Shown: positions 1-14,226 of the stretch, piece by piece
How positions within the stretch are numbered: the first letter of the stretch is position 1
Layout of the letters: each line of letters opens with the position of its first letter
Assembly: GCA_017652345.1 (NCBI GenBank)
Contig: JAGCBE010000372.1
Coordinates: 1 to 16,579, forward strand
Source: Methanobrevibacter sp.
GTDB taxonomy: Archaea; Methanobacteriota; Methanobacteria; Methanobacteriales; Methanobacteriaceae
DNA length: 16,579 nucleotides
Direction of reading: 5' to 3'
The notes under the pieces: generated by a model
What the model was told of the DNA's origin: nothing
The model's input: only the letters and a program-made list of their open reading frames with translations
Database searches by the model: none
Translations under genes and position numbers: made by a program

Positions 1-141
1 AAAATATTGGACAATTCGCAATATTTGGTCAGTCGCAATTTTTGGTCAGTGAAAATCGCCTTATGTGATAGTTTTGTGAAAACTGTTAAATGATTTGTTT
101 AATTACTGACTGTATATTTATTTTTGTGAAAGGTGTACAAA
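1..141. repeat. Left inverted terminal repeat (141 bp)
   Basis: Bases 1-141 are the exact reverse complement of 16439-16579; the match breaks at base 142 (g here, t on the reverse complement of the other end). Together with a protein-primed-type polymerase this indicates a linear genome with terminal protein on both 5' ends and replication origins at the very tips. The end begins AAAA, a short run that would allow the sliding-back initiation known for phi29-type polymerases (inference). The repeat also contains a 17-bp tandem repeat (17-50) and two copies of TTTTGTGAAA, at 72-81 and 122-131. Confidence 0.97.
17..50. repeat. Tandem 17-bp repeats inside the ITR (origin-like iterons)
   Basis: CGCAATATTTGGTCAGT (17-33) is followed directly by CGCAATTTTTGGTCAGT (34-50), differing at one base. 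A weaker third copy (AATATTGGACAAT) overlaps the terminal bases 3-15. The same array is mirrored at 16530-16563. Repeats this close to a protein-primed origin may be binding sites for the terminal protein/polymerase complex or for a DNA-binding activator (inference). Confidence 0.8.
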
Positions 142-2154: not shown

Positions 2155-2342
2155 TTTCTTTCACTCCCTTCAATTGTTCCACGTGAAACAATTGCACCCA
2201 CTTGAATTATATGATAATTGTACTGATTCAATGATCTATGCTTTATAAAGGTATATGCTTCTTTATAGTCACGAAAATATAAAGGCTTTAAACGTATATT
2301 AACAACTGCCGCACCCGTGATCATATTTCTTATCCAGTACAT
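2151..2342 (-). CDS. Small protein (63 aa) whose 3' end contains a parS site
   Basis: The ATG at 2342 has AAGGGGGT upstream, made from the last codons of the 125-aa gene. The product is basic and aromatic (MYWIRNMITGAAVVNIRLK); no family is recognised. The codons for GAIVSRGTI near the C-terminus encode the parS site at 2175-2190 within an almost perfect 24-bp palindrome, so this stretch is under both protein and DNA-site constraint. The TGA overlaps the next ATG. Confidence 0.75.
   Translation of the reverse strand: MYWIRNMITGAAVVNIRLKPLYFRDYKEAYTFIKHRSLNQYNYHIIQVGAIVSRGTIEGSERK
2175..2190. other. parS-type ParB/Spo0J binding site 1
   Basis: TGTTCCACGTGAAACA, an exact match to a known natural variant of the Bacillus chromosomal parS site. 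The flanks extend the palindrome to 24 bp (2171-2194), with only the C/A pair at 2179/2186 breaking symmetry. It lies inside the coding end of the 63-aa gene. One of four such sites in the genome. Confidence 0.88.
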
Positions 2343-2720
2343 TTATAAACCCCCTTCCCCACAACTATATTTTATAGTGTTGCTATTCATTTCTCTACAT
2401 ACTTTACAAGATTCAATATACTTTTCACATCTTTGTATTAAATCCTGGGGACTTTCTTTTGTTACTATATACGTTTGTCCGAAAGTTGTAATGCAGATAT
2501 ATGTAAAAGGCTTTTTAGAATGAATTATGCAATGCAGGGGGACAATGCCCCCCGTATATTCAATTATATTTCCGTCTGCGTGAATGTGATGTGTTTCACA
2601 AAAGCTGTCAATTCTTTTTAATTCTGATTCAGTGAGATTTTCAAGCTTCTTTTTGCTTCCGTCAGCATATATAACAAAAATTTCCCCTAATCTTTTATAA
2701 ACTGCTTCAATGATCTTCAT
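2343..2720 (-). CDS. Hypothetical protein (125 aa)
   Basis: I chose the ATG at 2720 (MKIIEAVYKRLG), which follows AGGGGGGT at normal spacing. A longer reading from 2756 would overlap the 31-aa membrane gene and has no good ribosome binding site. The N-terminal 35 residues look like a small beta sheet (EIFVIYADGSKKKLENLT). The middle holds HHIHADG and further His/Cys residues, and the C-terminal third has CEKYIESCKVC. The Cys/His content hints at metal or redox chemistry, but I recognise no family. The start lies 14 nt inside the 31-aa membrane gene. Confidence 0.72.
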   Translation of the reverse strand: MKIIEAVYKRLGEIFVIYADGSKKKLENLTESELKRIDSFCETHHIHADGNIIEYTGGIVPLHCIIHSKKPFTYICITTFGQTYIVTKESPQDLIQRCEKYIESCKVCREMNSNTIKYSCGEGGL

Positions 2721-2802
2721 AATCTGTACCCCCCTGTATAAAAGCAAGTAAAACACCGAAAACTGCCCCTAGTATTGAACTACCAACAATATATAATAAC
2801 AT
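2707..2802 (-). CDS. Small single-pass membrane protein (31 aa)
   Basis: The ATG at 2802 is preceded by AAAAGGAG with an 8-nt spacer, among the best ribosome binding sites in the window. The 31-residue product begins MLLYIVGSSILGAVFGVLL: one hydrophobic helix with small-residue spacing, then a short polar acidic tail (TDYEDH). The stop overlaps the start of the 125-aa gene by 14 nt. Size, layout and tail match the 31-aa and 34-aa membrane proteins at 187-282 and 2986-3090. Function unknown. Confidence 0.72.
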   Translation of the reverse strand: MLLYIVGSSILGAVFGVLLAFIQGGTDYEDH

Positions 2803-2807
2803 CTCTT

Positions 2808-3002
2808 TCACTCCTTTTCATTTAAATATTCTGCAATACACTTTTCGCAAGAGTCATATATACAAGGTGTTTTATAGCCTTCTAATACATCAATGATACA
2901 AAAAGTATGACCATGTATTGCTTTTAATCTACACATATTATTTTGCATTTCCACAAGTAAATTATATTCACTCATTTTCAAAATTTTATCTCTTTTTGTC
3001 AT
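2808..3002 (-). CDS. Small Cys-rich phage protein (64 aa)
   Basis: Three in-frame ATGs lie close together; I chose the one at 3002 (MTKRDKILKMSEYN) because AGGAG lies 9 nt upstream, whereas it abuts the first ATG. The start lies 17 nt inside the 34-aa membrane gene. The layout is a helical N-terminus (KILKMSEYNLLVEM), then C24 and C35, then a C-x4-C-x2-C cluster (C47, C52, C55) and an EYLNEK end. This resembles a small Cys-rich protein often seen in clostridial phages and prophages, with an NREKI-type start and a C..C...WLN end; the match is from memory. Probably zinc-binding; role unknown. Confidence 0.72.
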   Translation of the reverse strand: MTKRDKILKMSEYNLLVEMQNNMCRLKAIHGHTFCIIDVLEGYKTPCIYDSCEKCIAEYLNEKE

Positions 3003-3090
3003 TTTCATCATCTCCTATACAAGCAATACAAGATACAACTACAATTATCACAGAAGCGGACAACGCCCCCAGAAGAAAAGCACCTACCAT
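2986..3090 (-). CDS. Small single-pass membrane protein (34 aa)
   Basis: The ATG at 3090 follows the stop of the 63-aa gene by 1 nt, with AAAGGAG about 10 nt upstream inside that gene. The product begins MVGAFLLGALSASVII, has one long hydrophobic helix (about residues 2-25, including two cysteines) and a highly charged tail (DDENDKKR). It overlaps the 64-aa gene by 17 nt. It is the third of three similar tiny membrane proteins. Function unknown. Confidence 0.7.
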   Translation of the reverse strand: MVGAFLLGALSASVIIVVVSCIACIGDDENDKKR

Positions 3091-3091
3091 A

Positions 3092-3283
3092 TTATATCAT
3101 CTCCTTTAAATAATGATTTTCGTTATCTTCAATATAATTATCAATTGCCGTTTGCATCGCTTCACCTATTTTATATGCTTGTGTATCTGGGTCACTTGCA
3201 AGCAACCAATCCACAAAAATTTTTATATCCCTGGGGTCTGCTTTCATGTTATGGACTGCAACAAAATCTTTATATACATTCAT
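3092..3283 (-). CDS. Small acidic protein (63 aa), unknown function
   Basis: Its ATG overlaps the TGA of the 86-aa gene (ATGA), with GAGGGGA upstream. The product looks like a compact helical domain (DPRDIKIFVDWLLASDPD, then KIGEAMQTAIDNYIED) with an acidic end. No family recognised. Its final codons (TTAAAGGAGATGATATAA) supply the Shine-Dalgarno of the 34-aa membrane gene. Confidence 0.75.
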   Translation of the reverse strand: MNVYKDFVAVHNMKADPRDIKIFVDWLLASDPDTQAYKIGEAMQTAIDNYIEDNENHYLKEMI

Positions 3284-3540
3284 TTTCTTTTCCCCTCTTT
3301 GAAATATAAATTTGTAACGTACCTTGTGGATAATTCGTTATGCACAGATACTTTTATTAATCCTGCCCGTTTGCCTTTTGTAACAACTACGGCTTTTATA
3401 TTATCATTGTCAACTTTCTTTGATATATATCCTCTTTCGCTTCCTGTTCCCACAAATTCCAGAAACCCGGAAACAACAAGTTTCCGGATTTCCGCATATG
3501 TAACACCATTATACTTTTCACATAGTTCTTTTATAGTCAT
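3280..3540 (-). CDS. Possible helix-turn-helix DNA-binding protein (86 aa)
   Basis: Residues 1-45 read like a MerR/excisionase-type helix-turn-helix with a wing: TIKELCEKYNGVTYAEIRKL, then VVSGFLEFVGTGSERGYI. The remaining half is strand-rich and basic (AVVVTKGKRAGLIKVSVHN). It is the only product in the genome in which I see a plausible sequence-specific DNA-binding fold, so it is a candidate for the regulator that reads the ATTCGTAGAA or AAGGTGTATAC motifs at the promoters. The start at 3540 lies 1 nt after the 78-aa stop, with CGGGGGGT upstream. The HTH assignment is by eye and uncertain. Confidence 0.65.
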   Translation of the reverse strand: MTIKELCEKYNGVTYAEIRKLVVSGFLEFVGTGSERGYISKKVDNDNIKAVVVTKGKRAGLIKVSVHNELSTRYVTNLYFKEGKRK

Positions 3541-3541
3541 T

Positions 3542-3778
3542 TTAAAACCCCCCGTTTGTAATCTGATCTTTGATTGTATTATCTTCTGAACAATCCCATG
3601 CAGTTATAATTGTTTGGTATTCTTCCTGGGATAAGATACCTAATTGAAGGAGCATTAAAAGCTTTCCGTTAATCAAGTATCTGTAATTCAAGCTTTTAAA
3701 CATTTTCTTAGGTGTCTTTTTGATTTCTTCAATTTCGGTTTTTGCTATGGTTTCCATAATTTCTGCTTTGAACATCAT
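3542..3778 (-). CDS. Hypothetical protein (78 aa)
   Basis: Two adjacent ATGs lie at 3778 and 3775; AAGGGGGT about 8 nt upstream fits the first. Layout: a Lys/Glu-rich helical start (IAKTEIEEIKKTPKKM), then NYRYLINGKLLMLLQLG, then an acidic end. The segment LNYRYLINGKLLMLLQLGIL looks like a short two-helix unit. No family recognised. Overlaps or nearly touches both neighbours in the early operon. Confidence 0.72.
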   Translation of the reverse strand: MMFKAEIMETIAKTEIEEIKKTPKKMFKSLNYRYLINGKLLMLLQLGILSQEEYQTIITAWDCSEDNTIKDQITNGGF

Positions 3779-3791
3779 AATAGTTACCCCC

Positions 3792-4040
3792 TTAAAAACT
3801 TTTATAAGATTTTATATAATCTTCGGTCAATAGCCTTTCTGCTCTATGGCTTGATAAAAGGTCTGCGCATGTTTTATAAACGTTTTCAGCTTGTATAACA
3901 TATTCACCGTTGAAATTGTCTTGTGATATTCTGCATCTAACACCCAAAGCAAGAAGAAAATGCTCAAGCTGTTTTAGTTCTTCTTGTGTAAGTTGTAATA
4001 GATTACATTCTAGACCATACTTTTTGTTTATATGTTTCAT
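3792..4040 (-). CDS. Hypothetical protein (82 aa)
   Basis: I chose the ATG at 4040 (MKHINKKYGLECN), preceded by AAAGGGGGTTTCAAT. A longer reading from 4082 would begin inside the GC-rich hairpin at 4062-4081 and lacks a ribosome binding site. The product has a long helix (TQEELKQLEHFLLALG), a strand-turn part (RCRISQDNFNGEYVIQ) and a basic C-terminus. No family recognised. Confidence 0.75.
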   Translation of the reverse strand: MKHINKKYGLECNLLQLTQEELKQLEHFLLALGVRCRISQDNFNGEYVIQAENVYKTCADLLSSHRAERLLTEDYIKSYKSF

Positions 4041-4061
4041 ATTGAAACCCCCTTTAATTTG

Positions 4062-4081
4062 TGGGGGACTTTTGTCCCCCA
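4062..4081 (-). promoter_or_regulatory. GC-rich leader hairpin before the 82-aa gene (start 4040)
   Basis: TGGGGGAC / GTCCCCCA forms a perfect 8-bp stem with a 4-nt loop. It ends about 20 nt upstream of the ATG at 4040 and just before AAATTAAAGGGGGTTT, the gene's ribosome binding region. No T-run follows, so it is not a terminator. The C-run of its 3' arm could alternatively pair with the GGGGG Shine-Dalgarno. Similar hairpins precede the tail-knob, portal and terminal protein genes. Confidence 0.7.
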
Positions 4082-4088
4082 TATTATT

Positions 4089-4337
4089 TTATTTAAACTG
4101 CAAATATTTAAATTCTGCTGTATATCCGTTTTCGTCTGGCTTATCATATTCCTTGTAAATGTCCGGATAAAACATTTTAAATATTTCTTTCAGTTTTGAA
4201 ATTTGCTTTTCTGTAAGATCAAGAAATAGATAAGCTTGACACATAAAGAAATCAATTGTTTTTGTTCTTTCCGGTTCTGGCAATTGAGATATTTGTGTAA
4301 GTTTGTCGCACATACCGTTAAAATAAGCTTTTTTCAT
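4089..4337 (-). CDS. Hypothetical protein (82 aa)
   Basis: ATG at 4337 with GAGAGGAC upstream. The product appears wholly helical (MCDKLTQISQLPEPERTK, then LTEKQISKLKEIFKMFYPD) and ends in a polar tail with several aromatics. No family recognised. It is the second gene after the 4615-4643 promoter, so probably made early and in quantity; early phi29-type genes of this kind often affect host functions (inference). Confidence 0.75.
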   Translation of the reverse strand: MKKAYFNGMCDKLTQISQLPEPERTKTIDFFMCQAYLFLDLTEKQISKLKEIFKMFYPDIYKEYDKPDENGYTAEFKYLQFK

Positions 4338-4382
4338 AACGTCCTCTCTTTCTCCCCGTATTGCCGTTAGGTCAGCACCTTT

Positions 4383-4583
4383 TTATTCTTTATAAAATGC
4401 ATATACACCATTCATTCTCATAAGGAAATATTGCTCTCCGGTTTCTATGTCTGCCCAAATCTTAGTTCCACTATTCATTTCACCGATTACTTCACAAGTA
4501 ATTTTTTCATAAGGTATCGCTTCAAATCTACCGGGGTATTTTTTACTAGGTACTAATTCAATGCGTATTGCGGTCTTTTTCAT
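4383..4583 (-). CDS. Hypothetical protein (66 aa), first gene of second early operon
   Basis: This is the first gene downstream of the promoter at 4615-4643, with about 25 nt of leader. The ATG at 4583 has a purine-rich but imperfect ribosome binding site (GGAAAGG). The product looks like a small beta-rich domain: KKTAIRIELVPSKKYPGRFE, then KITCEVIGEM, KIWADIETGEQYFL and a final GVYAFYKE. This could be an OB- or SH3-like barrel, but no family is recognised. Confidence 0.75.
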   Translation of the reverse strand: MKKTAIRIELVPSKKYPGRFEAIPYEKITCEVIGEMNSGTKIWADIETGEQYFLMRMNGVYAFYKE

Positions 4584-4614
4584 AATTGTTGTCCCTTTCC
4601 TTTTCCTTGATTAT

Positions 4615-4643
4615 AGTATACACCTTATTCGTAGAAAAGTCAA
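4615..4643 (-). promoter_or_regulatory. SigA-type promoter of the small-gene/packaging ATPase operon
   Basis: Minus strand: -35 TTGACT (4638-4643), 17-nt spacer, -10 TATACT (4615-4620). The spacer contains TTCTACGAAT, also present in the spacer of the promoter at 8280-8308. A second copy lies 21 bp upstream, and a 17-bp A/T palindrome (4665-4681) sits further upstream as a possible UP element. The -10 overlaps AAGGTGTATAC, also found at the late start site. Confidence 0.88.
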
Positions 4644-4658
4644 GTCTATTCGTAGAAT
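4627..4658. promoter_or_regulatory. Pair of candidate operators ATTCGTAGAA
   Basis: Two copies of ATTCGTAGAA(T), at 4627-4636 (within the promoter spacer) and 4648-4658 (just upstream of the -35), are 21 bp apart, two turns of the helix. Each is an ATTC-NNN-GAAT dyad, the first with a base different at the end. A third copy is in the promoter spacer at 8293-8302. Position in and beside two early promoters suggests a repressor or activator site. Confidence 0.65.
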
Positions 4659-4664
4659 TTATGG

Positions 4665-4681
4665 TATATAAAATTTATATA
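4665..4681. promoter_or_regulatory. A/T palindrome, candidate UP element
   Basis: TATATAAAATTTATATA is a perfect 8-bp dyad around one central base. The first 16 bases recur exactly at 16424-16439, beside the late promoter. In both places it lies upstream of a -35 box, so it may bind the RNA polymerase alpha C-terminal domain or a bending protein (inference). The polymerase gene ends at 4690, so the element also separates two operons. Confidence 0.5.
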
Positions 4682-4689
4682 TCCCTATA

Positions 4690-7239
4690 TTAAATTCCAT
4701 ATCTGCCTAAATTGTACTCCATAGGCAGAAGCGCACCGAAATTTCTTTGATTCAATGGCGTTGTATATCCACTATAGCTACGATCTCTTACAAGCTTCCC
4801 CGTTTGTTCTGCCGGGATAATATGCGGTTTGAACATATCAGATAATAAAGCTTTTACACTGTTTATGTTTTCGTCTGTATATTGTACCCCTTCCCACTTT
4901 TCAAGAAAGTCTTTTAAATATACACCGGCTTTAAAACCACTTATAGTATATCCTATGTGCAATTCTTCCGGGTTTTTACCTCTGCAAACGTCAATATGTT
5001 TTAATGTTTCTGTGGTCATAAATTCAAGGGGATTTCCGCTTGTTTCACAGTCTACAGCACCAAAATTAAAAACGTTTCTTGCGTAAGCTTGTGTTGTGTG
5101 CCCGTAGCACCAATTTTTAAATAGATCATCTTGTATGTTATTTGCCTTTATGCTGTCAGTCGCAAAATAAAAGATTTTTCCCCCGTTGTTGATACAATAC
5201 CAAATCATGCAAGCTAATTCAAATCTAGTCCATGCGGCTATATATGCACCCGTACAATAATGTATCTTTGTCTTTGAAATGCTGTCCTCATAATCCTGTT
5301 GACCATTTGCAATAATGCTATACCAATCATGTATATTTATTTCCATTTCGTCATGAATGGGACTTTGGTATTCCTGTCCGAAAATACCATTGAAAACCCC
5401 CTTGATGCGTAATAATTCACCGTCAAGAAAATCAATATAATTATCCGGGGTTATAGCGTTTTTTGTATAATCCTCTGCCGTACTGTTTTGAATGTTATTA
5501 TATAATTCTTCATAAGGTAATTTTTTAGCCTGCTTTGTAAAACCCTTGTATAATTCCTTGTTTGCACCGTAGTATTCAAATTTTCTTAATATGTATTCAT
5601 CACAATTAACTAAAGGATAAACATATCCTTCCAGTATTTCAATGTTATCATAATCATAAAAAGTCAAGTGATATATTAAGTCTATACCATAAACCCACTT
5701 TATATATTGTTCTGACTTCCTACATTTTCCATATTGATTAACCCCGTTATAATTATACGCTTGACGTTGTAGTTTTTCACTACGTGCAGTCCCTAAAGCC
5801 GCTTTACCTGCCCCCAGAGAATTAATAATATTTCCGTTTATATTCTTTTCCCGTAGGTTTGTAAATCTGATCAGTAATAAATAATCATGGTATCCGGTAA
5901 AGTCATTGTATAAAAACTTCGGATTTTGTATCATTATTTCTGATATACCTTTTAATTCACGTATTACATCATTGTATTTTTCTGTGGGGACTGCTTCTAT
6001 TTTATCCCCCTGGGGGAAAAGCTTGTTAAAAGCTTGTGACGGGTGCGCACTTTTAATATCAAAACTATGCACCCCACTTTGCCATTTGTCACATTCCAGA
6101 GGATTAACACCAATTAAACCGCCCCCGGAAGCGTTAAAGAATTTTTGAAATAAATCCTCATTAGGCATATTGAACATATAAGAAATACCGTTGTGTTTCT
6201 TTTCAAGTGTGTTATATCTCTCTTGTCTTTGCGGCTGTGGTATGTTTACATTATAGTTTAGCTTGCACGTGTTTCTGCTGTGCTGTGTTGCAGACATAGG
6301 TAATTGCGTAATATCTTTGTATATTTCTTGCTGTTGCTGTATTTCAAGAATTGCTTTCAATGCTATTTCATTATCTCTTTGATTGTATGCCCTATCGAGA
6401 TCATTTATTAGTTCCGGATTTGTTCTTGTTAAGTCATAATCGTATTCTAGTTTTGGTAGTTTGTATGCTTCACCCAGATTTCTTATTGATTTTCCTGTCA
6501 TTAATAAAGAATCTCGAATAAGGAATTTACAAGTTGCTATATAGTTTTTATTGTTCTTAGGGTCTAATATACCCGTCATTGCTTCGATGCTTTTTATGTC
6601 GTGTGTACCATTTGCAATGATCGTTAATTGCTTGTTTTCTTCAATGTCTGTTATCAGTTTAAGAAGGTTTGTATTATATCTAATATAACTATATTCATAA
6701 TCTAAGTTATGCGCTGTGAATAGTATATCTGCCCCTGCCTTGAACATTCTATAAAGCTTTTTGAATACCTTGTTATCATCTTCCGGAGTATAGCAAAACA
6801 CACTGTTTATTTTCTTTTTCTTGCAGTCATAAATATAGAAATTGGATAAGTATTTATGCGTTAATGGAATAAGAATAATTTTACTGTCGTGTTCTTCATT
6901 GAAAGCATCAATTATTTTCTGTGCTTCCTTCACGTTGTCCCTGTCAATATATCTTATTTCTTCCTGTCCTAACTGCTTGCATATATACTCTTTTAATTTC
7001 TCTGTACCTTTTCCCCTGCCTATATGCTTTAATTGCGGAAGCAATTCACGGTCTAGAAGATCAATAGCCAATGTTTCATAATAATCATCATCTATTTCTT
7101 TTCCGTCAATATCTTCTGCCACATCATATATGACCGAGTTTTCTATATCATAGCAAACTATATATTGTTCACCCATACGGGGAAAGCCTTTTGCGCTGTA
7201 GTATCTTTTCAACCCTCTTGCATAATTCTTGATATACAT
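4690..7239 (-). CDS. Protein-primed family B DNA polymerase
   Basis: Replicative polymerase that would start at the terminal protein on each ITR. ATG at 7239 (849 aa) has AAGGAG 11 nt upstream; the GTG at 7251 is too close to it. Exonuclease-like motifs: YDIEN (D31/E33), HNLDYEY (N178, E182), YNQRD (Y285, D289). Polymerase motifs: A DIKSAHPS (D394), B KGVFNGIFG (K613), C YFATDS (D695), and a later FKAGVY (KxY-like). Much longer than phi29 polymerase (about 570 aa), with about 100 extra residues between Exo I and Exo II and a long segment between motifs A and B, where the TPR1/TPR2 insertions that mark protein-primed enzymes lie. Odd points: His at the motif A Tyr, Gly and Phe at the motif B Ser and Tyr, and Ala at the first Asp of motif C. 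It follows the candidate terminal protein. Confidence 0.95.
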   Translation of the reverse strand: MYIKNYARGLKRYYSAKGFPRMGEQYIVCYDIENSVIYDVAEDIDGKEIDDDYYETLAIDLLDRELLPQLKHIGRGKGTEKLKEYICKQLGQEEIRYIDRDNVKEAQKIIDAFNEEHDSKIILIPLTHKYLSNFYIYDCKKKKINSVFCYTPEDDNKVFKKLYRMFKAGADILFTAHNLDYEYSYIRYNTNLLKLITDIEENKQLTIIANGTHDIKSIEAMTGILDPKNNKNYIATCKFLIRDSLLMTGKSIRNLGEAYKLPKLEYDYDLTRTNPELINDLDRAYNQRDNEIALKAILEIQQQQEIYKDITQLPMSATQHSRNTCKLNYNVNIPQPQRQERYNTLEKKHNGISYMFNMPNEDLFQKFFNASGGGLIGVNPLECDKWQSGVHSFDIKSAHPSQAFNKLFPQGDKIEAVPTEKYNDVIRELKGISEIMIQNPKFLYNDFTGYHDYLLLIRFTNLREKNINGNIINSLGAGKAALGTARSEKLQRQAYNYNGVNQYGKCRKSEQYIKWVYGIDLIYHLTFYDYDNIEILEGYVYPLVNCDEYILRKFEYYGANKELYKGFTKQAKKLPYEELYNNIQNSTAEDYTKNAITPDNYIDFLDGELLRIKGVFNGIFGQEYQSPIHDEMEINIHDWYSIIANGQQDYEDSISKTKIHYCTGAYIAAWTRFELACMIWYCINNGGKIFYFATDSIKANNIQDDLFKNWCYGHTTQAYARNVFNFGAVDCETSGNPLEFMTTETLKHIDVCRGKNPEELHIGYTISGFKAGVYLKDFLEKWEGVQYTDENINSVKALLSDMFKPHIIPAEQTGKLVRDRSYSGYTTPLNQRNFGALLPMEYNLGRYGI

Positions 7240-7259
7240 TGTTTCTCTCACTCCTTATA

Positions 7260-7796
7260 TTATTTTCCGTTTCTTCTGTTTATGAATTTTTCAACTGCGC
7301 TTTCAATATCTTCACTTTCTGCATCGTCGTAAGTACCTTTAGCATGCTCTAAGTTATAGCGGCTTTCAGCATTTTGAAGATTAGAAGAATTTAAAATATC
7401 TTCCAGTTTGCTTATAGTCCTTTTCACCTTGTTTAGTTCCAGTCTGTTAGCCTTTTTATTTTTCTTTTCATCTTCATATATTTCTTGCAGTCTTGTAATT
7501 GTTTCTTTGATCTTTTTAATTATGGCGTGTGCTTCATTATATAAAGCCGGTAAAATTTCCCCTTCATAGCTGTAGTCATAATATTCATCTAACATGTTAT
7601 TCACATTAGTTTCCGGGATAACGCTTGTATGTGCTAATTCCGCTTTTGCCCAGGGCGGAAGATATTTTAAAGCCTTTTTAAAATCATAAGAAGCATTATT
7701 GATAAAATCTAGTGTTTGATTTGCTTTGCCGTTTGCTTTGCTTTTGATGTTCTGTATTCTTTGCCGTTTATATTCTTCTGCTGAAAGTTTACCCAT
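7260..7796 (-). CDS. Candidate terminal protein (genome-linked primer)
   Basis: 178 aa, ATG at 7796 with AAGGGGGT upstream, and 20 nt upstream of the polymerase: the position of the terminal protein in phi29-type genomes (gene 3 then 2). It is highly charged: a Lys/Arg-rich N-terminus (EEYKRQRIQNIKSKANGK), a long predicted coiled coil (about residues 85-135, with KKIKETITRLQEIYEDEKK) and an acidic C-terminus. This fits the DNA-binding N-domain, rod and priming-domain layout of phi29 gp3, though it is shorter (phi29: 266 aa). No sequence motif proves the assignment, and the priming Ser/Thr/Tyr cannot be picked. Alternative: a DNA-binding accessory protein. Confidence 0.7.
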   Translation of the reverse strand: MGKLSAEEYKRQRIQNIKSKANGKANQTLDFINNASYDFKKALKYLPPWAKAELAHTSVIPETNVNNMLDEYYDYSYEGEILPALYNEAHAIIKKIKETITRLQEIYEDEKKNKKANRLELNKVKRTISKLEDILNSSNLQNAESRYNLEHAKGTYDDAESEDIESAVEKFINRRNGK

Positions 7797-7812
7797 AATA
7801 AAACCCCCTTAG

Positions 7813-7828
7813 TGTTTCACGTGAAACA
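7813..7828. other. parS-type ParB/Spo0J binding site 2
   Basis: TGTTTCACGTGAAACA, identical to the consensus chromosomal parS and a perfect 16-bp palindrome. It lies in the gap between the SSB stop and the terminal protein start, 17 nt upstream of that ATG, next to its ribosome binding site. Confidence 0.93.
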
Positions 7829-7845
7829 TTTTATAATATATGATT

Positions 7846-7875
7846 ATGGGACAGAGTTTTTTACCCCTGCCCCAT
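7846..7875 (-). promoter_or_regulatory. Hairpin between SSB and terminal protein genes
   Basis: On the minus strand ATGGGGCAG pairs with CTGTCCCAT (8 Watson-Crick pairs and one G-U that forms only in minus-strand RNA), with a 12-nt loop. No T-run follows, so it is more likely an mRNA stability, processing or translation element than a terminator. It lies 11 nt after the SSB stop. Confidence 0.6.
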
Positions 7876-7886
7876 TTTCAAATTAT

Positions 7887-8225
7887 TTAGAATGGTGTAT
7901 CAATGTCAATTGTCTTGCTGACTTTTGCCGCTGTAAATATTGTCTTGCTGACTTTCTTTGTCTTATCGAAGAAACTTGATATAAAGCCTGTACACTGTAC
8001 CGTATCACCTTTGTTATAATCTTCAATTGTATCTGTTTCCATTAGATCAACAGGAACATTCACGGTCAGTAAGTCGTAATAGTCCCCACGAGCAGATTTA
8101 ATTGTTAAATAGTCTGCGCTTTTACCTTCAAAAATGTCTGTGATTTCACCCACAATGCAAAATGCGCTTGCCGGGATACCGTCTTTTCTTTCCTTGTTTT
8201 CGCTTGCTTTTCTACTTCTTGCCAT
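7887..8225 (-). CDS. Single-stranded DNA-binding protein (OB fold) with SSB-Ct-like tip
   Basis: 112 aa, first gene of the replication operon, ATG at 8225 with AGAGGT upstream; protects displaced strands during replication, as phi29 p5 does. After a basic leader (ARSRKASENKERK), residues 20-105 read as OB-fold strands (FCIVGEITDIFEG, DYLTIKSARGDYYDLLTV, then KGDTVQCTGFISSFF). The last six residues are DIDTPF, close to the acidic D/E-x-PF tip of bacterial SSB proteins that recruits host repair and replication enzymes. The codons for KVSKTI occur twice, 30 nt apart, just before this tip, as though a duplication lengthened the tail. The fold is by eye; the tip supports the assignment. Confidence 0.82.
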   Translation of the reverse strand: MARSRKASENKERKDGIPASAFCIVGEITDIFEGKSADYLTIKSARGDYYDLLTVNVPVDLMETDTIEDYNKGDTVQCTGFISSFFDKTKKVSKTIFTAAKVSKTIDIDTPF

Positions 8226-8279
8226 AATTAAAACCTCTTTTCAAAAATATTTTTCGGCGTATGTCTTTGCCGTAATTAA

Positions 8280-8308
8280 AGAATATCATATCATTCGTAG
8301 AAAGTCAA
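8280..8308 (-). promoter_or_regulatory. SigA-type promoter of the replication operon
   Basis: Minus strand: -35 TTGACT (8303-8308), 17-nt spacer, TG extended element, -10 TATTCT (8280-8285). Predicted start near 8273, about 48 nt before the SSB ATG. The spacer contains the ATTCGTAGAA dyad shared with the 4615-4643 promoter, and an 11-bp direct repeat (GTTACAAATTG/T) lies upstream at 8319-8340. Confidence 0.82.
8293..8302. promoter_or_regulatory. Candidate operator ATTCGTAGAA
   Basis: Third copy of the ATTCGTAGAA element, in the spacer of the SSB-operon promoter, as in the 4615-4643 promoter. Binding here would block RNA polymerase, so a shared early-gene regulator is likely. Confidence 0.6.
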
Positions 8309-8318
8309 CAGTTTTTTA

Positions 8319-8340
8319 AATTTGTAACCAATTTGTAACT
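8319..8340. repeat. 11-bp tandem repeat upstream of the replication promoter
   Basis: On the minus strand GTTACAAATTG is followed directly by GTTACAAATTT. The pair lies between parS site 3 and the -35 box, 11 bp from the latter. One helical turn of spacing suggests a dimer or cooperative binding site on one face of the DNA (inference). Confidence 0.6.
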
Positions 8341-8357
8341 TGTTTCACGTGAAACAA
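8340..8357. other. parS-type ParB/Spo0J binding site 3
   Basis: The consensus parS TGTTTCACGTGAAACA (8341-8356) extended by one pair to a perfect 18-bp palindrome. It lies in the non-coding hub 32 bp upstream of the SSB-operon -35 box, and its first bases overlap the T-run of the terminator at 8356-8390. Sites 2 and 3 are 528 bp apart and flank the SSB gene. Confidence 0.93.
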
Positions 8358-8390
8358 AAATTTTCCCGGATACTATTGCACCCGGGAAAG
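8356..8390 (-). terminator. Intrinsic terminator of the late operon and of the 8432 transcript
   Basis: Minus strand: TTTCCCGG pairs with CCGGGAAA (8 bp, 12-nt loop), followed by ATTTTTG. It lies 74 nt after the tail-knob stop, so it would end late transcripts before the replication operon. It also lies some 40 nt after the start predicted for the promoter at 8439-8467, making a short RNA. The T-run borders parS site 3. Confidence 0.85.
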
Positions 8391-8432
8391 CATCAAAAAG
8401 TGAGAGAAAAACAAGTGAATAAAAGAAAGGAC
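8356..8432 (-). ncRNA. Predicted ~75-nt RNA between a perfect promoter and a terminator
   Basis: The strongest promoter in the window (8439-8467) starts transcription near 8432 and meets the terminator hairpin at 8390-8356, which should release an RNA of roughly 75 nt. Its 5' half is a pyrimidine-rich single strand (TTTCTTTTATTC, TTTTTCTCTCAC) and its 3' half the hairpin. Only a 6-codon ATG frame without a ribosome binding site is present. Either a small regulatory or structural RNA, or an attenuated leader of the SSB operon. A packaging RNA like phi29 pRNA is conceivable, but there is no sequence evidence for it. Confidence 0.45.
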
Positions 8433-8438
8433 AATTGT

Positions 8439-8467
8439 ATTATATCATATTAGTTTGATTTTGTCAA
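8439..8467 (-). promoter_or_regulatory. Perfect consensus SigA promoter, overlapping the tail-knob stop
   Basis: Minus strand: -35 TTGACA (8462-8467), exactly 17 nt, TG extended element, -10 TATAAT (8439-8444). Both hexamers are full consensus. The -35 overlaps the stop codon of the tail-knob gene, and GTTTGA/TCAAAC (8453-8469) can form a small dyad over it. Likely the strongest promoter in the genome. Confidence 0.9.
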
Positions 8468-10107
8468 ACAATCGAATTACTATTATCATACACTCCATAC
8501 GTTGCACCGCTTGACATATGCCATACGGTTATCCCGTCATTGAATAGCTTATCAATCATTTCTTTCTGATCTTCCGCTATTGCGCCATAAACGTTTGAAC
8601 CTATTGTTTTACAGTAATTATAATGTGCTCGGCTGTTTATCTGTGGGGTTTTTGCTATAGATACATTATAGCCGAACATATCAAAATACTTATCAATCAA
8701 TTCTGCATATTCACCCTTTACGCACATGTCAAGTGCTTGAATACCGCCCTTTGTCATGTATAGCATTGCATTTCCTGTCAATGTTCCTTTCATTTCATTT
8801 GGTCTCCGTTGCATATCTTTAAGACTTGCTAACCACGCCATTGCATTTTCAGTATTGGAAAGTACATCAAAAGCACTTGCATTTGCTTGTGAAAAGTTTT
8901 GAGCAGATAAAGCACCTAATCCGCTTTTTACTATGCTTCCGGCTTTTTCATATAATGTCATATCCACAACATTTTTATTCTGTGAATACCATGCATTATA
9001 AGTGTCTATGCTGTATGCAATGGGTGAAAATTGAGAAAATGAAACACATTTATCAATACAGTTAGTAACACCATTATAATTAACTGGTGTAAGTGTCAAT
9101 GTGGGGGAAAGTGTAGCACTATACGACACTAAAAAATTATTGTTAGCAGTTATTTTTTCATATTCAATTATTGTATTGCTACCATTAGAAGCAACTATTG
9201 AAATGTAGTTAAATGGATATGTATATAATTTGTTATTGTGCGGTGTATATCCGTCCAAATCTGTAAAATTACTGTATATACTTCTGTTAAACTGAGCGCC
9301 GCCATTATCACTTAAAATATACACTTTGTTTGTACCTATTTCTGAAGCTACTTCGGACGGTATATTAACTTCTTCCGCTGTTGTATATGAACGTAAAAGA
9401 GGAATAATACCAATTATTGACGATGATTTATTTATGTCCGTTATGTATTCAATAAATGCACCTAAATCGTCAATACTTTCGGGTGCTATGATATAACTAC
9501 AATTTGCATTTCCGCCTATAAAACTGTCATAATCTCCTTTAGCGGTGAATGTGTGTTCAGTCATAAAAATTGCCGCATAATAATTACTATCAAATACACC
9601 TTTACTACGGGCTGAAAGTCCTGTACATAAGTCATATAAAACAGAATTACACACTATATTGTCACTGGGTATATCTTCCGGCAAAGTGTGTAAACCTCTT
9701 GTGTCATTCGAAACGTGTTCACGTTCGACAAAACAATCATTAAAATTAATGCTTCCGATATTATTTACAAAAGCGTCTATGCGAATATGCAAGCGGCTTG
9801 TAGCCGGTGCAACATATTCTATCTGATCTATAAAGCAATATCTGTAAAAGTTTCCGGCTTGTGGATTAATAAAACGACAATAATTAACTCCGTAGCTATC
9901 TAAAGTATCTGCATCGATACCCACAGTTATAACACCATGTTCTCTTGTGTATGTTGCATTTGATATTGTATGTGTTATAGTTGCAATAGTGCTACTGCTT
10001 GAAAAATAGGTATCACGTGCAGAAGCACTTGTAAAATCTATTGTTTTGTGCCCTGTCCTTTCTAGCTTACAATTATATAGTGTTATTCCGCTTATAGCTA
10101 AAGGCAT
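8464..10107 (-). CDS. Tail knob / distal tail protein, phi29 gp9-type
   Basis: 547 aa against 599 for phi29 gp9, which forms the hollow tail knob through which DNA enters the cell. Visible family signs: the N-terminal block with VEREHVSNDTRGLHTLPED (about 127-145), a Gly/Ala/Ser-rich, mildly hydrophobic segment AGSIVKSGLGALSAQ (from residue 389) at the place of the phi29 membrane-active loop, and the C-terminal block FGYNVSIAKTPQINSRAHYN (about 478-497), comparable to gp9. ATG at 10107 with AAAGGGGGTTTTATT upstream, itself preceded by a GC-rich hairpin. Last gene of the late operon; its stop overlaps the -35 of the next promoter. Confidence 0.88.
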   Translation of the reverse strand: MPLAISGITLYNCKLERTGHKTIDFTSASARDTYFSSSSTIATITHTISNATYTREHGVITVGIDADTLDSYGVNYCRFINPQAGNFYRYCFIDQIEYVAPATSRLHIRIDAFVNNIGSINFNDCFVEREHVSNDTRGLHTLPEDIPSDNIVCNSVLYDLCTGLSARSKGVFDSNYYAAIFMTEHTFTAKGDYDSFIGGNANCSYIIAPESIDDLGAFIEYITDINKSSSIIGIIPLLRSYTTAEEVNIPSEVASEIGTNKVYILSDNGGAQFNRSIYSNFTDLDGYTPHNNKLYTYPFNYISIVASNGSNTIIEYEKITANNNFLVSYSATLSPTLTLTPVNYNGVTNCIDKCVSFSQFSPIAYSIDTYNAWYSQNKNVVDMTLYEKAGSIVKSGLGALSAQNFSQANASAFDVLSNTENAMAWLASLKDMQRRPNEMKGTLTGNAMLYMTKGGIQALDMCVKGEYAELIDKYFDMFGYNVSIAKTPQINSRAHYNYCKTIGSNVYGAIAEDQKEMIDKLFNDGITVWHMSSGATYGVYDNSNSIV

Positions 10108-10129
10108 AATAAAACCCCCTTTAATTATA

Positions 10130-10149
10130 GGGGCGGCATATACCGCCCC
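10130..10149 (-). promoter_or_regulatory. GC-rich leader hairpin before the tail-knob gene
   Basis: GGGGCGG / CCGCCCC (7 bp, 6-nt loop), lying 11 nt after the dockerin-gene stop and about 22 nt before the tail-knob ATG. It is followed by AATTAAAGGGGGTTT, the same sequence that follows the hairpin at 4062-4081. No T-run follows. Confidence 0.7.
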
Positions 10150-10160
10150 ATTTTATTATA

Positions 10161-11306
10161 TTAGTATTCCCAGATTGGCGGATTGCCTGCAAGATACCAG
10201 TTATAGAATTTATCTGCATCGCTGTTAACATATTGTGTTTTCCCTGTGCTTGCATTTGCATAATATGTCATTATATTACTTGCATCAATAGCGTTTAACT
10301 TTCCGTCTTTATTGGTATCCGGAAAAACTGTTGTGTCAAGTTGCAAACCGTCCGGGTGTTCTGCGTTGTATTCTGCCGCCCATTCTGCCCATGTTAAATC
10401 CGGGTCAGTGCTTGCCGCTGAATAATATTGTAGTATTATAGATGCTGTACGGTTATCAATGGGAATTGATTTGTTTGTAAATATCTTTACACTTGCTTGA
10501 TATGCTTCCTTTTCGTCTGTTGGTGTTACAGTCTTACCGGCATATAAAACAATGTCAGCTTGTGTTATAAATGTATCTGAAATGTCACTATCTGTATAAG
10601 CGTTGCCGCTGATATTGCTACTTCCTAAAGATATACTAATTGTACCGGCTGTTGCTATTGTTATGTTATATGTCAAATACCCGTCAGCATTGAAGGATAT
10701 ACCGTTTATTGTATCACCAATCTGCACACGTTCACGAATAACAAAATTTTCTGAATTGTTATTGATCTTAGTACTAATTCTATAAACACAATCAACGGCA
10801 GTTTCAGCAGGGTTTAAAGCTGTATAAGTAGATGTAATTGAAATATCATTTGATACTGTAGTATCATTAATTACATCAATATATACTGTTGTTCCTTCAC
10901 GCTGTAGAGAAAGAATAGCACTTGTATTTTCCGCTGTTTGTTCCTGTAAAGCAGGAATTGTAGTTGTTAATACTGTTGTTATAGCAGTCTTATTATTGGT
11001 TATAAAAGTCACAGCTTCCGCCGCTGATTCATTATACCATGTTGTCAAAGTGTCAACACTATCTTCTAAACTGTCAACGGCATTTTCAAGACTGTCAATA
11101 TCATCTTCCGCACTTTGTATTCTTCCTTCATGATCTTCCAGTGTTGTCTGTATACCTTCAATTGCTTCCTGTAATGTTTCAATATCACTTTCGGCTTTTG
11201 TTATCCTTGTTTCATGATCTTCGACTTTAGCCGTAACTTTTCCTAACCACTCCATATAAGTATAAGAATCGTTATAAAAAGCCGGTACTGTATTCCAGTT
11301 AATCAT
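10161..11306 (-). CDS. Coiled-coil virion protein with C-terminal dockerin-like domain
   Basis: 381 aa between the lower collar and the tail knob, where phi29-type phages place appendage or tail proteins. Residues 1-20 form an aromatic cap (MINWNTVPAFYNDSYTYMEW). Residues 24-90 are a heptad coiled coil with repeated D/E-H-E-x-RI units, likely trimeric. Residues 135-265 are beta-rich. The C-terminus carries two aligned 28-residue units starting at F276 and D330. The second has a complete calcium loop DTNKDGKLNAID followed by ASNIMTYYANAST; the first, FTNKSIPIDNRT then ASIILQYYSAAST, has lost the Asp ligands. This is the layout of type I/ruminococcal dockerins, which bind cohesins of cellulosome or amylosome scaffolds. 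Probably the receptor-binding appendage (inference). ATG at 11306, AAAGGGGGT upstream. Confidence 0.83.
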   Translation of the reverse strand: MINWNTVPAFYNDSYTYMEWLGKVTAKVEDHETRITKAESDIETLQEAIEGIQTTLEDHEGRIQSAEDDIDSLENAVDSLEDSVDTLTTWYNESAAEAVTFITNNKTAITTVLTTTIPALQEQTAENTSAILSLQREGTTVYIDVINDTTVSNDISITSTYTALNPAETAVDCVYRISTKINNNSENFVIRERVQIGDTINGISFNADGYLTYNITIATAGTISISLGSSNISGNAYTDSDISDTFITQADIVLYAGKTVTPTDEKEAYQASVKIFTNKSIPIDNRTASIILQYYSAASTDPDLTWAEWAAEYNAEHPDGLQLDTTVFPDTNKDGKLNAIDASNIMTYYANASTGKTQYVNSDADKFYNWYLAGNPPIWEY

Positions 11307-11319
11307 TATATAACCCCCT

Positions 11320-12027
11320 TTAGAATATCATCATAAATAAATCACTTAAACGCTTTATAATTTCTTCGTCGATATTATCAATAGCGTTTTTGTAATCTTC
11401 ATACGACTTAAACGGACTTTGATTTGTGCCGTATCTGTGAGTATCTCTGTTATCAAAGGACCGTTCATTTTCATTTACTGCACCATTAGCACCCCCGGTT
11501 TTAATGCTTCCCGTTTGTCCCTGGGTTTGCGTTTCCGTGTAAGTTGTAGTCGGTGATATATTTTCTTTTGATACGGTAGCGCTTGACATATGGTCCGGAC
11601 TTGACGGGTCAAGGCTTGTTATGTTCTGCGGTGTATCAAAATTATATATTTTGTTTTCCGCTTGTGAAGCTCTACCGCTTTTAACGTTCGATGCATTATA
11701 CATATCGCTTTTATTATATTCTTTTCCGGTTTCCTCTGTATGTTCGTCATACGTGTAGAAATTTTCCGGTACTGTCATAAACTTTGCAAGTGCGGCGTAT
11801 TTGCTGTTGTAGTATGGCATAATAGTCCGCATACGTGTATTCAGATAATGCTTGAAAGTTTGCGGCGTTTCAAAACCTATTTCTTGCATATAATAATTAT
11901 CAATTATTTTCTGCTTTAGTGCTTCCCTGTGTAATTCTTCATAGATTGGAAAAGCTTTATCCCCGGTTTCCCAGATATTGAAACCACTATCAAGAAGGTT
12001 TTTCAATCGTATTGTATAATTACCCAT
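11320..12027 (-). CDS. Lower collar (connector) protein, phi29 gp11-type
   Basis: Links the portal to the tail knob. I chose ATG at 12027 (MGNYTIRLKNLL, 235 aa) because AGGAAGGTG is well placed and the start lies 1 nt after the portal stop; a longer reading from 12051 lacks a ribosome binding site. Features: N-terminal helix with GFNIWETGDKAFPIYEELHR, then the TRMRTIMPYYNSKY segment (about residues 74-87), a Ser/Thr/Asn-rich middle that may be flexible, and a C-terminal helix EEIIKRLSDLFMMIF as in lower collar proteins (phi29 gp11 is 293 aa). Order portal, lower collar, tail matches phi29 10-11 and 9. Confidence 0.88.
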   Translation of the reverse strand: MGNYTIRLKNLLDSGFNIWETGDKAFPIYEELHREALKQKIIDNYYMQEIGFETPQTFKHYLNTRMRTIMPYYNSKYAALAKFMTVPENFYTYDEHTEETGKEYNKSDMYNASNVKSGRASQAENKIYNFDTPQNITSLDPSSPDHMSSATVSKENISPTTTYTETQTQGQTGSIKTGGANGAVNENERSFDNRDTHRYGTNQSPFKSYEDYKNAIDNIDEEIIKRLSDLFMMIF

Positions 12028-12028
12028 T

Positions 12029-12955
12029 TTATGCACCTTCCTTTTCTTCAAGTATTTCCGTTTTCTTTATTCCTGTTTCTGTCAGAATTAAAGCGTTATC
12101 CCCTGCAATTGAATTAAATTGCTCAACTGCTTTTCTTCTGGGACTTTCAAAAAGGTTTGTAAACTTCTCCGTCAAATCTTCCGCAATTTCCGCTTCCCCT
12201 GTGATAAGTCTTTCACGCTTTTCGTCTATAGTGTTTATGCCTATAAAGTTTAAAGCATCATTAAATTCGTTTTGCTTCTGTGCGTATAGTTTATCGACTA
12301 AATAAGGTGAATTTAAGTCAAGCACTTTCACTTTCTCACGTATGCCCCCGGCAGAAGAATTTGTGAAAATTACCTCACTCATTTCCTTGATTTTCTTGAA
12401 AAGGTTTTTAACACTGAACTGCATTTCTGGTGTCGTTTCAATAATATATGGCGTTTTCTGTGCATCAATATTTAAATCCATAACCCTTTCAATATGTGAT
12501 ATTCTGTCGCAATATTTCCATATCCAAAAGCTTGTGGGTAAACAATAAGCATTGTTTTTAATCCATATAACATCTTTATAGTCATATATTTTTGATTTTT
12601 CGCCGCTAAAAGTGAATGTTTGAAATCTTGTAGGAACTCCAAATTCGTCTGGCTTTCCTAAAGCTACACACCGCAAAACTTCCCAGTATTCCCCGGTTTT
12701 ATGTAAAAGACACTGACCATAGTAATATAATAGATGCTCTATATATTCCGAAAGTCTTTCAAAGGGTTTTATTATCTTGCTTTCCCACTTAAAACGGTTT
12801 TGAGCAATCAGCGTTAAAGCAAAATAATTGTTGTTATATGTACTCAAATTTCTGGGTGTTCCGTCAGTGCCGTATATACTTTGTAAATTTGTAAAGGCTA
12901 TATTTGACGGGTTAATTAAATTCCAATTGATACCGCTTGTATCTATGTCCGGCAT
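12029..12955 (-). CDS. Portal (upper collar / head-tail connector), phi29 gp10-type
   Basis: 308 aa, the same length as phi29 gp10 (309), forming the dodecameric DNA channel at the unique vertex where the packaging ATPase docks. Signs: RFKWES followed by the helix IIKPFERLSEYIEHLLYYYG, the FGVPTRFQTFTFSGEKSKI wing strands, YDYKDVIWIKNNAYCLPTSF, and the channel/crown part with LNFIGINTIDEKRERLITGE near residues 232-251, the NxxxEKRERL type typical of these portals. Start ATG at 12955, with AAGGGGGT just upstream, after the hairpin at 12976-12998. Confidence 0.92.
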   Translation of the reverse strand: MPDIDTSGINWNLINPSNIAFTNLQSIYGTDGTPRNLSTYNNNYFALTLIAQNRFKWESKIIKPFERLSEYIEHLLYYYGQCLLHKTGEYWEVLRCVALGKPDEFGVPTRFQTFTFSGEKSKIYDYKDVIWIKNNAYCLPTSFWIWKYCDRISHIERVMDLNIDAQKTPYIIETTPEMQFSVKNLFKKIKEMSEVIFTNSSAGGIREKVKVLDLNSPYLVDKLYAQKQNEFNDALNFIGINTIDEKRERLITGEAEIAEDLTEKFTNLFESPRRKAVEQFNSIAGDNALILTETGIKKTEILEEKEGA

Positions 12956-12975
12956 ACTATACCCCCTTAAAATTT

Positions 12976-12998
12976 AGGGCGGCAATATAAGCCGCCCT
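12976..12998 (-). promoter_or_regulatory. GC-rich hairpin between capsid and portal genes
   Basis: AGGGCGGC / GCCGCCCT, a perfect 8-bp stem with a 7-nt loop, 28 nt after the capsid stop, followed by AAATTTTAAGGGGGT, the portal ribosome binding site. The short T-run makes it at most a weak terminator. It would help keep portal (12 copies) far below capsid (hundreds of copies), as attenuator or as mRNA 3'-end barrier (inference). Confidence 0.65.
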
Positions 12999-13005
12999 GT
13001 TTAAT

Positions 13006-13021
13006 TGTTCCACGTGAAACA
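13006..13021. other. parS-type ParB/Spo0J binding site 4
   Basis: TGTTCCACGTGAAACA, the same variant as site 1, starting 5 bp beyond the capsid stop codon. Outside the 16 bp the flanks (TTAAT, TTCTA) are unlike those of the other sites, so the conserved unit is the parS core itself. Confidence 0.93.
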
Positions 13022-13026
13022 TTCTA

Positions 13027-14226
13027 TCACGATCTACTATAATATGTATTTGCCGCATATACGGGTGCTTCATCAAAATTATTCTTGATGTAAGCATCAC
13101 CGGAAACACCGGACTTTGTGAAATAATCATTGTAATTCGTTGCCCAGTCTGCCGGAGCTTCTGCGCCTGTAAGCTGTGTATAATTGTAAGTAGTAAATGC
13201 AATGCAGTTTGCAAACGGGTCAAGTGCAAGAATTGCTTGACGGTAGTAATAGAAATTTACTGAACAACTTTCCGGATTAAAGAAAGAATATGCACGTTCA
13301 AGCACCTTTTCAAAGTGAAGCTTTGTATCATCAAAGAGAATTGCCGCTACCTTTCCGGCATCATCAATCTTATCTACAACAAATACTTTTCCCATAATTT
13401 CCGCTTTATCAATATTGAAAGCCGCCGCAAGTGCGTAAACATCTACAACTGCGCTTGTTTTTGCTGTAAGGATAATTGAAATACTGTCAGAATCACTCCA
13501 AGTTTTAACCTTATGGCTTGCACTGTCAGTCCATGAGTTATAATCTGTTGAAGGGAACTGGAAAGAAAGATACTTTTCACGTGCTTTAACAAGGAAAGCT
13601 TCTGCGCTTGCTTTATCTGTAATATCAGAAATTGAAGAAACTACCATATCTCCATTATTAAAACCGGCAGTCATAATAGCTTTCATTGTGTCGAATTCTT
13701 CAATATTTGCATCACTTACAAGTGATCTAGAAATAGAATCAATGAGCTTTCCAACATCGTCCCAGGACTGCACGATATTAATAATTTGTACGTCATTATA
13801 TGTTTTCTTGTACTTCTTACCATAATTTTTCTTAAAGAAAATCTGCTTGATGTCCGGTAGCTTATCTTTGAGAAGATCAGCGTTATTTCCTGTGCCTGCT
13901 GTATCTGCTTCCGGGAAAAGGAAAGTTTCACCCGTCTGTGGGTTAATATAGAATTCGCTTTCTGCTAGACCGTATGGTAATTCTCCTGTTTTAAATCTTT
14001 CTAGAGGATTATTGAAAAATCTTGAAAGAATCTGCTGTTTAACAATTGTATTTGTCAAGCCGCTGAAAAAGCTATTTGCCATTTCACTATCACTTAAAAT
14101 ATTACTAATCCATGTATTAGCGTTATCACTCCATGCACTGTCCGCACCAATTGACTTAGTTATTTGCTGTGCTATCTTCTTAGCAATATCTCCTGTAGTT
14201 TTCTGCATTTTAATTTTTTCACTCAT
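13027..14226 (-). CDS. Major capsid protein, phi29 gp8-type (HK97 fold)
   Basis: 399 aa (phi29 gp8 is 448). Contains the NPLERFKTGELPYG signature near residues 73-86 followed by SEFYINPQTGETFLFPEAD, as in gp8-type capsid proteins, then KDKLPDIKQIFFKKNYGKKYKKT and, in the last half, the strand-rich A-domain part. The missing C-terminal stretch relative to gp8 would match absence of its Ig-like domain (inference). ATG at 14226 with CGGGGGT upstream. Followed by parS site 4 and a GC-rich hairpin. It sits after the lysis genes, so capsid expression relies on the same late promoter. Confidence 0.9.
   Translation of the reverse strand: MSEKIKMQKTTGDIAKKIAQQITKSIGADSAWSDNANTWISNILSDSEMANSFFSGLTNTIVKQQILSRFFNNPLERFKTGELPYGLAESEFYINPQTGETFLFPEADTAGTGNNADLLKDKLPDIKQIFFKKNYGKKYKKTYNDVQIINIVQSWDDVGKLIDSISRSLVSDANIEEFDTMKAIMTAGFNNGDMVVSSISDITDKASAEAFLVKAREKYLSFQFPSTDYNSWTDSASHKVKTWSDSDSISIILTAKTSAVVDVYALAAAFNIDKAEIMGKVFVVDKIDDAGKVAAILFDDTKLHFEKVLERAYSFFNPESCSVNFYYYRQAILALDPFANCIAFTTYNYTQLTGAEAPADWATNYNDYFTKSGVSGDAYIKNNFDEAPVYAANTYYSRS

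Follow-up and report, generated by a model that had tools for sequence, protein, structure and literature searches.

Four chromosomal-type parS sites on the genome of a phi29-like phage: probable recruitment of the host ParB

Introduction

Host Spo0J, a ParB protein, has been reported to help trap the chromosome of phi29 within spores, with Spo0A halting the lytic cycle (PMC9437464). ParB is described as a CTP-dependent clamp that is loaded at parS, spreads and engages ParA (PMC12704722), and that loads SMC (PMC9564211); the consensus TGTTTCACGTGAAACA has been used as parS for gut bacteria (PMC10197239). Phages with a partition system of their own include extrachromosomal mycobacterial prophages (PMC7157519) and staphylococcal phages that encode ParB (PMC10286716). 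Here we describe four parS sites on contig JAGCBE010000372.1 (assembly GCA_017652345.1, deposited as Methanobrevibacter sp.), of which the whole stretch of 16,579 bp was analysed and is called the window hereafter. It represents the complete, linear genome of a phi29-like phage, with 34% GC and inverted terminal repeats.

Like phi29 and its kin (Salasvirus, Beecentumtrevirus, Bahkauvirus), the window phage is linear and has the same families of capsid, connector, tail knob and packaging ATPase. In each of six kin compared, two to four exact parS are present, kept in place with T/C swaps, and ParB was not recognised. Unlike phi29, the window has its main genes on one strand and no excess of Spo0A boxes; its major capsid protein (MCP) is 26% identical to that of phi29, and the site positions differ save one next to the connector gene. 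Phages with their own partition system likewise carry a partition element on the genome, but encode ParB and in some cases also ParA, neither of which was found in the window. The window 16-mer is identical to the chromosomal parS of Bacillota, with variants shared between phage and chromosome. Exact copies on most of the 148 chromosomes surveyed, however, number one to three and, where places were listed, usually lie a few kb apart at most, whereas the window phage has four over 10.8 kb. The original prediction, made from the letters of the window, had implied that this arrangement is singular. It is less singular than that, as phi29 itself carries four exact sites; the parS theme is not unique to the window phage, and a role of Spo0J in phi29 has already been reported.

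Results

Four parS sites in the window

The four sites agree exactly, in coordinates and letters, with those first predicted. The sequence TGTTCCACGTGAAACA is present at 2175..2190, within a small predicted open reading frame (ORF; 2151-2342) just before an 84-amino-acid gene (1900-2154), and again at 13006..13021, in the intergenic gap between capsid and connector genes. The sequence TGTTTCACGTGAAACA is present at 7813..7828, in the intergenic space immediately upstream of the predicted terminal-protein gene, and at 8341..8356, with a terminator-like hairpin (8362-8389) on one side and, on the other, a promoter-like pair (8308-8280) that precedes the gene 7887-8225. Three of the four sites are thus intergenic and one, at 2175, lies in a small ORF. 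Two of them, 7813 and 8341, flank the first gene of the replication operon as had been predicted, this being the 112-amino-acid gene at 7887-8225 just before the predicted terminal-protein gene.

All four sites fit the 16-bp palindrome TGTTNCACGTGAAACA of chromosomal-type parS. Eight strand-matches were detected in the window at up to three mismatches, every one from the four parS places, and the next-best 16-mer had five mismatches, indicating that the window sites are all-or-none. Among 200 dinucleotide-shuffled windows the mean was 0.56 strand-matches at the same threshold and the maximum 5, none reaching 8. Hairpins were observed within about 20 bp of three of the four sites (8362-8389, 7847-7874 and 12976-12998), one terminator-like by scan and two by eye; the same three were recognised by eye in the nearest relative.

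The sequence itself stands out among palindromes of this phage family. Perfect four-letter 16-nt palindromes in the window and 126 phi29-like viral contigs were of 40 kinds, of which TGTTTCACGTGAAACA ranked top (10 contigs including the window) and the parS variant TGTTCCACGTGGAACA second (three contigs), while the other 38 kinds were found in one contig each. Exact parS was found 27 times in 17 of 136 records, against none for each of 60 palindromes with a permuted parS arm of equal make-up. One-mismatch sites in these records numbered 11 for parS, against a mean of 0.25 and a maximum of 2 for the permuted palindromes. As control phages we used a family with the N4-gp56 capsid, some members of which are named as from Clostridia. 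Neither exact nor one-mismatch parS was found in 46 deduplicated control contigs (636 kb), as compared with 19 exact sites in 13 of 113 contigs and seven one-mismatch sites in the phi29-like set (1.458 Mb). Near-copies, as judged by shared 21-mers, were dropped in this comparison, in the one-mismatch count, and in the position test and capsid tree described below.

Conservation of the sites in relatives

The nearest relative found, L122 (14,510 bp), is 90% identical in capsid and 84% in polymerase, with aligned DNA stretches of 71-82% identity; L121 was dropped as part of L122. Four exact parS sites are present in L122, at places identical to those of the window. Window site 13006 corresponds to L122 1444 (15 of 16 letters; 80-bp flanks on each side 57% identical), site 8341 to 6097 (15 of 16; flanks 61%), site 7813 to 6638 (16 of 16; 66%) and site 2175 to 12327 (16 of 16; 57%). 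The two letter differences both fall on the free T/C position of parS. It had been a concern that parS cores might be absent from, or randomly placed in, close relatives; in L122, the one close relative found, four sites are present in the same places and the idea survived.

A further relative, L454 (12,077 bp; 43% polymerase identity), carries three copies of TGTTTCATGTGAAACA, a one-mismatch parS. One of them, at 9926, lies at the capsid/connector junction, as does window site 4, beside a two-mismatch copy. L454 was counted among the one-mismatch sites and stands outside the capsid tree, the position test and the ParB scan. In the more distant relative L123 (9.4 kb, incomplete; 40% capsid identity), the connector, collar and knob genes (3340-8344) are split in the standard code but intact once TAG is taken as a sense codon, so that TAG is probably translated as an amino acid in this phage.

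Parallel spelling of phage and chromosomal parS

The survey of chromosomal parS covered 148 genomes from the class to which a rumen Ruminococcus metagenome-assembled genome (MAG) belongs, inferred from its title to be Clostridia. The pattern TGTTYCACGTGRAACA was present in 119 of them, mostly in one to three copies, and the reversed pattern in none. A variant with the core CATGTG, TGTTYCATGTGRAACA, was found in 23 of the same genomes (reversed control, none), either beside canonical parS (G012, G052) or in genomes lacking the canonical form (G013, with three, G031 and G087). ParB is encoded within about 1 kb of parS in five host-genome stretches (L260, L306, L284, L335 and L311); plausible hosts with a chromosomal ParB thus use the sequence found on the phage.

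The same core is frequent in the phages. Nine of 15 one-mismatch sites of phi29-like phages, in seven of 11 records, carry CATGTG, one of 21 possible folded changes; three of the nine are supplied by L454. Since this core is shared by most phage variants and by host chromosomes, most phage drift follows host parS. Of the observations made here, this shared drift points most strongly to host ParB as the reader of the phage sites.

Search for ParB on the phage

No ParB or ParA family was detected among the 27 distinct window ORFs scanned with Pfam, and a ParB profile gave no match in the window at E<=10, which bears out the earlier statement that no gene product looks like ParB. The profile was built from seven ParB/Noc proteins adjoining parS in host-genome stretches, all seven of which pass TIGR00180. 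Applied to 149 phi29-like records (7,805 ORFs), it gave no match at E<=10, a scan that a very divergent ParB could escape. The same profile recovers ParB in 28 of 80 parS-bearing host-genome stretches and matches one control phage contig, L440, indicating that some other phages of such hosts encode ParB-like proteins. A phage-encoded ParABS system was rejected, as neither parB nor parA was recognised on the window.

The sequence TGTTTCACGTGAAACA occurs in at least 120 viral contigs; among the matches listed, six are phi29-like and one has a recognisable ParB in the stretch examined, so that parS without a nearby ParB extends beyond the phi29-like family. Three related viral contigs (L016, L043 and L052; long matches 73-78% identical) have three to five exact parS within about 1 kb each. 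No recognisable ParB was found in the stretches of them examined, and L043 has an SU10-type portal; on their sequences these contigs are another phage group with host-type parS. Yet another viral contig stretch, L086 8906-13863 (65% GC), has 12 exact parS in 5 kb.

Distribution among phi29-like phages

Of the 89 phage records that matched the MCP, we chose 22 for comparison; relatives among viral contigs were the best 80 of 362 encoding a relative. At least one exact parS was found in 10 of the 22 records: phi29 (four, at 10445, 15903, 17243 and 18760), PZA, Goe6 and Chedec 11 (three each), B103 and Goe1 (two each), MT835854 (two), and Hungatella CH17P1, Enterococcus faecium CUB-FM and MT835904 (one each), CUB-FM having one variant site in addition. 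In all six B. subtilis-group phages an exact site is located near the connector/collar junction, around which identity to phi29 is 81% for B103 and 73% for Chedec 11.

The 134 deduplicated records contain 42 exact parS, of which 22 are intergenic against 4.1 expected, these sites being not independent of descent. Fifteen of the 42 lie within 100 bp of either end of a structural gene (capsid, knob, connector or collar; 3.1 expected), and eight of the intergenic sites are near such an end (2.4 expected). A capsid tree was made for 112 records, each at least 9 kb long and with a capsid protein that reaches 280 amino acids. Exact parS is present in 22 of the 112, and its distribution needs 16 changes, 13 of them forced by well-supported branches; long branches were flagged, the window's clade among them. 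Within the clade (support 85) that includes the Actinomyces and Curtobacterium phages, exact parS was found in none of 28 rows. Another phi29-like contig, L009, which is outside the counted set, has exact parS at 5525, 5551 and 12130, the first two right behind a 472-amino-acid ORF of capsid-gene size.

Other features of the phage genome

The left terminal repeat (1..141, plus strand) is matched exactly over 141 bp by the right one (16439..16579, minus strand), and the main genes are all on the minus strand. The capsid, connector, tail knob and packaging ATPase match the phi29 families PF25622, PF05352, PF20934 and PF05894 (gp16), all above cut-off. From left to right, the window encodes a gp16-type DNA packaging ATPase (679..1893; PF05894, E 4e-12; phrog_2150) and a family B DNA polymerase of 853 amino acids (4690..7251; phrog_1907, E 1.5e-17, with PF03175 slightly below cut-off). 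The predicted terminal protein (7260..7796) is named by its position before the polymerase gene, and the 112-amino-acid product of 7887..8225 may by position be a single-stranded DNA-binding protein; informative family matches were found for neither. Then follow a gp9-like tail knob protein (8464..10107; PF20934, PF16838, phrog_2248), a gp11-like lower collar or adaptor (11320..12051; phrog_5472, phrog_3225), a gp10-like connector or portal (12029..12955; PF05352, E 1e-31), the phi29-like MCP (13027..14226; PF25622, E 2e-60) and an M23 peptidase, a probable tail lysin or endolysin (14242..14769; PF01551, E 6e-16).

An Rfam scan of the window to E 1 gave one weak match, to a family other than packaging RNA, although diverged packaging RNAs may escape these models; for this reason the window phage is called phi29-like on its proteins and genome ends. 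The gp16-type ATPase is thus present while its RNA partner was not found by Rfam models. The window capsid is about 24-32% identical to those of phage records (60 of 89 MCP-matching records), and a nucleotide search of the window against the phage collection gave zero matches. A coiled-coil tail protein (10161-11306) ends in a stretch, DTNKDGKLNAIDASNIMTYYA, judged dockerin-like by eye, with no Pfam call at E 0.01. The C-terminal 50 or so residues of the capsid protein (about 348-399; window 13030-13185) also match an internal stretch of an N4-gp56 capsid protein (L380) and a further protein (L382), both from bacterial genomes, and are probably a movable, surface-displayed domain.

Discussion

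The window sites are best explained as parS kept on the phage genome and most likely read by host ParB, linking phage DNA to the ParA/SMC segregation machinery of the host; we give this reading a probability of about 0.7. Recruitment of host ParB appears the best reading because the sites are of parS type, no phage ParB was recognised, and the sites are conserved in number, in place and in most of their letter changes as host parS allows. Host ParB as the reader is well supported by these comparisons of sequence. It would load at the four phage sites as CTP-dependent clamps, may spread on the phage DNA in the infected cell, and would tie this DNA to host ParA/SMC. The linear phage DNA might then be placed near the host origin region and be distributed in an orderly way to daughter cells when lysis is delayed; in sporulating hosts, it might be captured in the spore. 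The phage sites would thus act in cis as borrowed centromeres, with no partition protein recognised from the phage itself. Recruitment of host ParB had been proposed in the original prediction, which is supported in part: the parS type of the sites, their conserved number and place and the lack of a recognisable phage ParB speak for it, while the dedicated spore or silencing function attached to the proposal would go beyond these findings. No paper on parS sites in phi29-like phages was found among those listed in our literature searches, but such a statement may well exist in Meijer et al. 2005, the source cited for Spo0J spore trapping, which reportedly discusses the parS sites of phi29 itself.

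Several observations weigh against recruitment of host ParB. Conservation of all four places is seen in one close relative, L122, and no parS at zero or one mismatch was found in the distant relative L123, an incomplete contig. The remaining six of the 15 one-mismatch phage sites are six different, non-host-type changes. Two-mismatch parS sites (19, against a permuted mean of 5.6) are within the permuted range, and were given no weight because the permuted maximum of 26 exceeds them. At contig level the control is weak alone, with parS in 10 of 69 phi29-like against none of 26 N4-gp56 contigs of at least 12 kb, a borderline difference. In the search for the host, an MCP-alignment scan of genome contigs gave no relative, and an MCP profile gave partial matches only, in two of 391 genomes of the Ruminococcus MAG's class and in two of 296 from the class that includes a 'Bacillales' MAG. 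Exact parS is lacking in 90 of the 112 tree records, some of them incomplete contigs, and in 12 of the 22 chosen phage records. The latter are phages of B. pumilus, B. safensis (two), B. thuringiensis, Lysinibacillus, Curtobacterium and Actinomyces, four records from human faeces, and Cytobacillus Bfsp1, whose sites all have one or two mismatches; parS is therefore not required for this life style. The first five are phages of Bacillus/Lysinibacillus spore formers. Furthermore, Spo0A boxes (TGTCGAA) are at chance in the window, with two against 1.65 expected, while L122 has none and phi29 six. Any entry into spores would therefore proceed without the Spo0A arm of phi29, unless the host box is spelled otherwise.

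These last observations bear on the proposal that drawing phage DNA into the forespore, a role reported for Spo0J with phi29 (PMC9437464), is the sole purpose of the sites. Exact sites in phi29, PZA, Goe6, B103, Goe1 and Chedec 11, one near the connector/collar junction in each, agree with it. Enterococci, however, make no spores, and CUB-FM carries an exact and a variant site. Since exact parS occurs in an Enterococcus phage and is missing from several Bacillus phages, and since the window shows no enrichment of Spo0A boxes, we disfavour a spore-only role, which is in our estimate decidedly unlikely. Spore carriage as first predicted thus stays a plausible use of the sites but does not stand as their general role. 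Transcription control, in which ParB bound at the sites would be a roadblock or silencer delaying phage genes and segregation a side effect, is unlikely but keeps a minor chance. The excess of sites in intergenic gaps and at structural-gene ends is what it would lead one to expect, as are the location of window site 3 between the terminator-like hairpin and the promoter-like pair and that of site 2 before the predicted terminal-protein gene. On the other hand, some sites are inside genes (phi29 15903 and 18760), and between clades the places differ while the letters stay; moreover, compact genomes offer a 16-mer mainly gaps, which itself favours junctions, and descent links the sites.

That the sites are operators of a phage-encoded or another host regulator, coincidentally sharing the parS sequence, might be suggested by palindromes near gene starts, but is highly improbable. 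The letters differing from L122 are confined to free parS positions, chromosomes share the most frequent one-mismatch form, no regulator families were detected among the 27 scanned ORFs at E<=0.01, and sites of the related Noc protein were not found in the window. Chance and the capture of host DNA, by the phage or during assembly, were also considered. The window genome is complete, with 141-bp ends, and its sites lie at four separate places among phage genes and at the same places in the diverged L122. No support for such an origin was found; it is taken as refuted by the conservation in L122 and is given practically no weight.

We extend recruitment of host ParB to the family only tentatively, at less than an even chance. 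Small lytic phages may repeatedly co-opt the host centromere, parS being often gained and lost, settling beside portal and capsid genes and matching the spelling of the host lineage, so that the host segregation machinery would retain, sort and transport a phage that has no lysogeny genes, with or without spores. If this is true, lytic phages would persist with their hosts by a cis-acting route, without integration or lysogeny genes, and host ParB would be a factor exploited by many phages. The parS spelling of a phage genome could then indicate its host lineage, and the long-standing problem of how phi29-like phages travel with host DNA could be tested directly across many phages.

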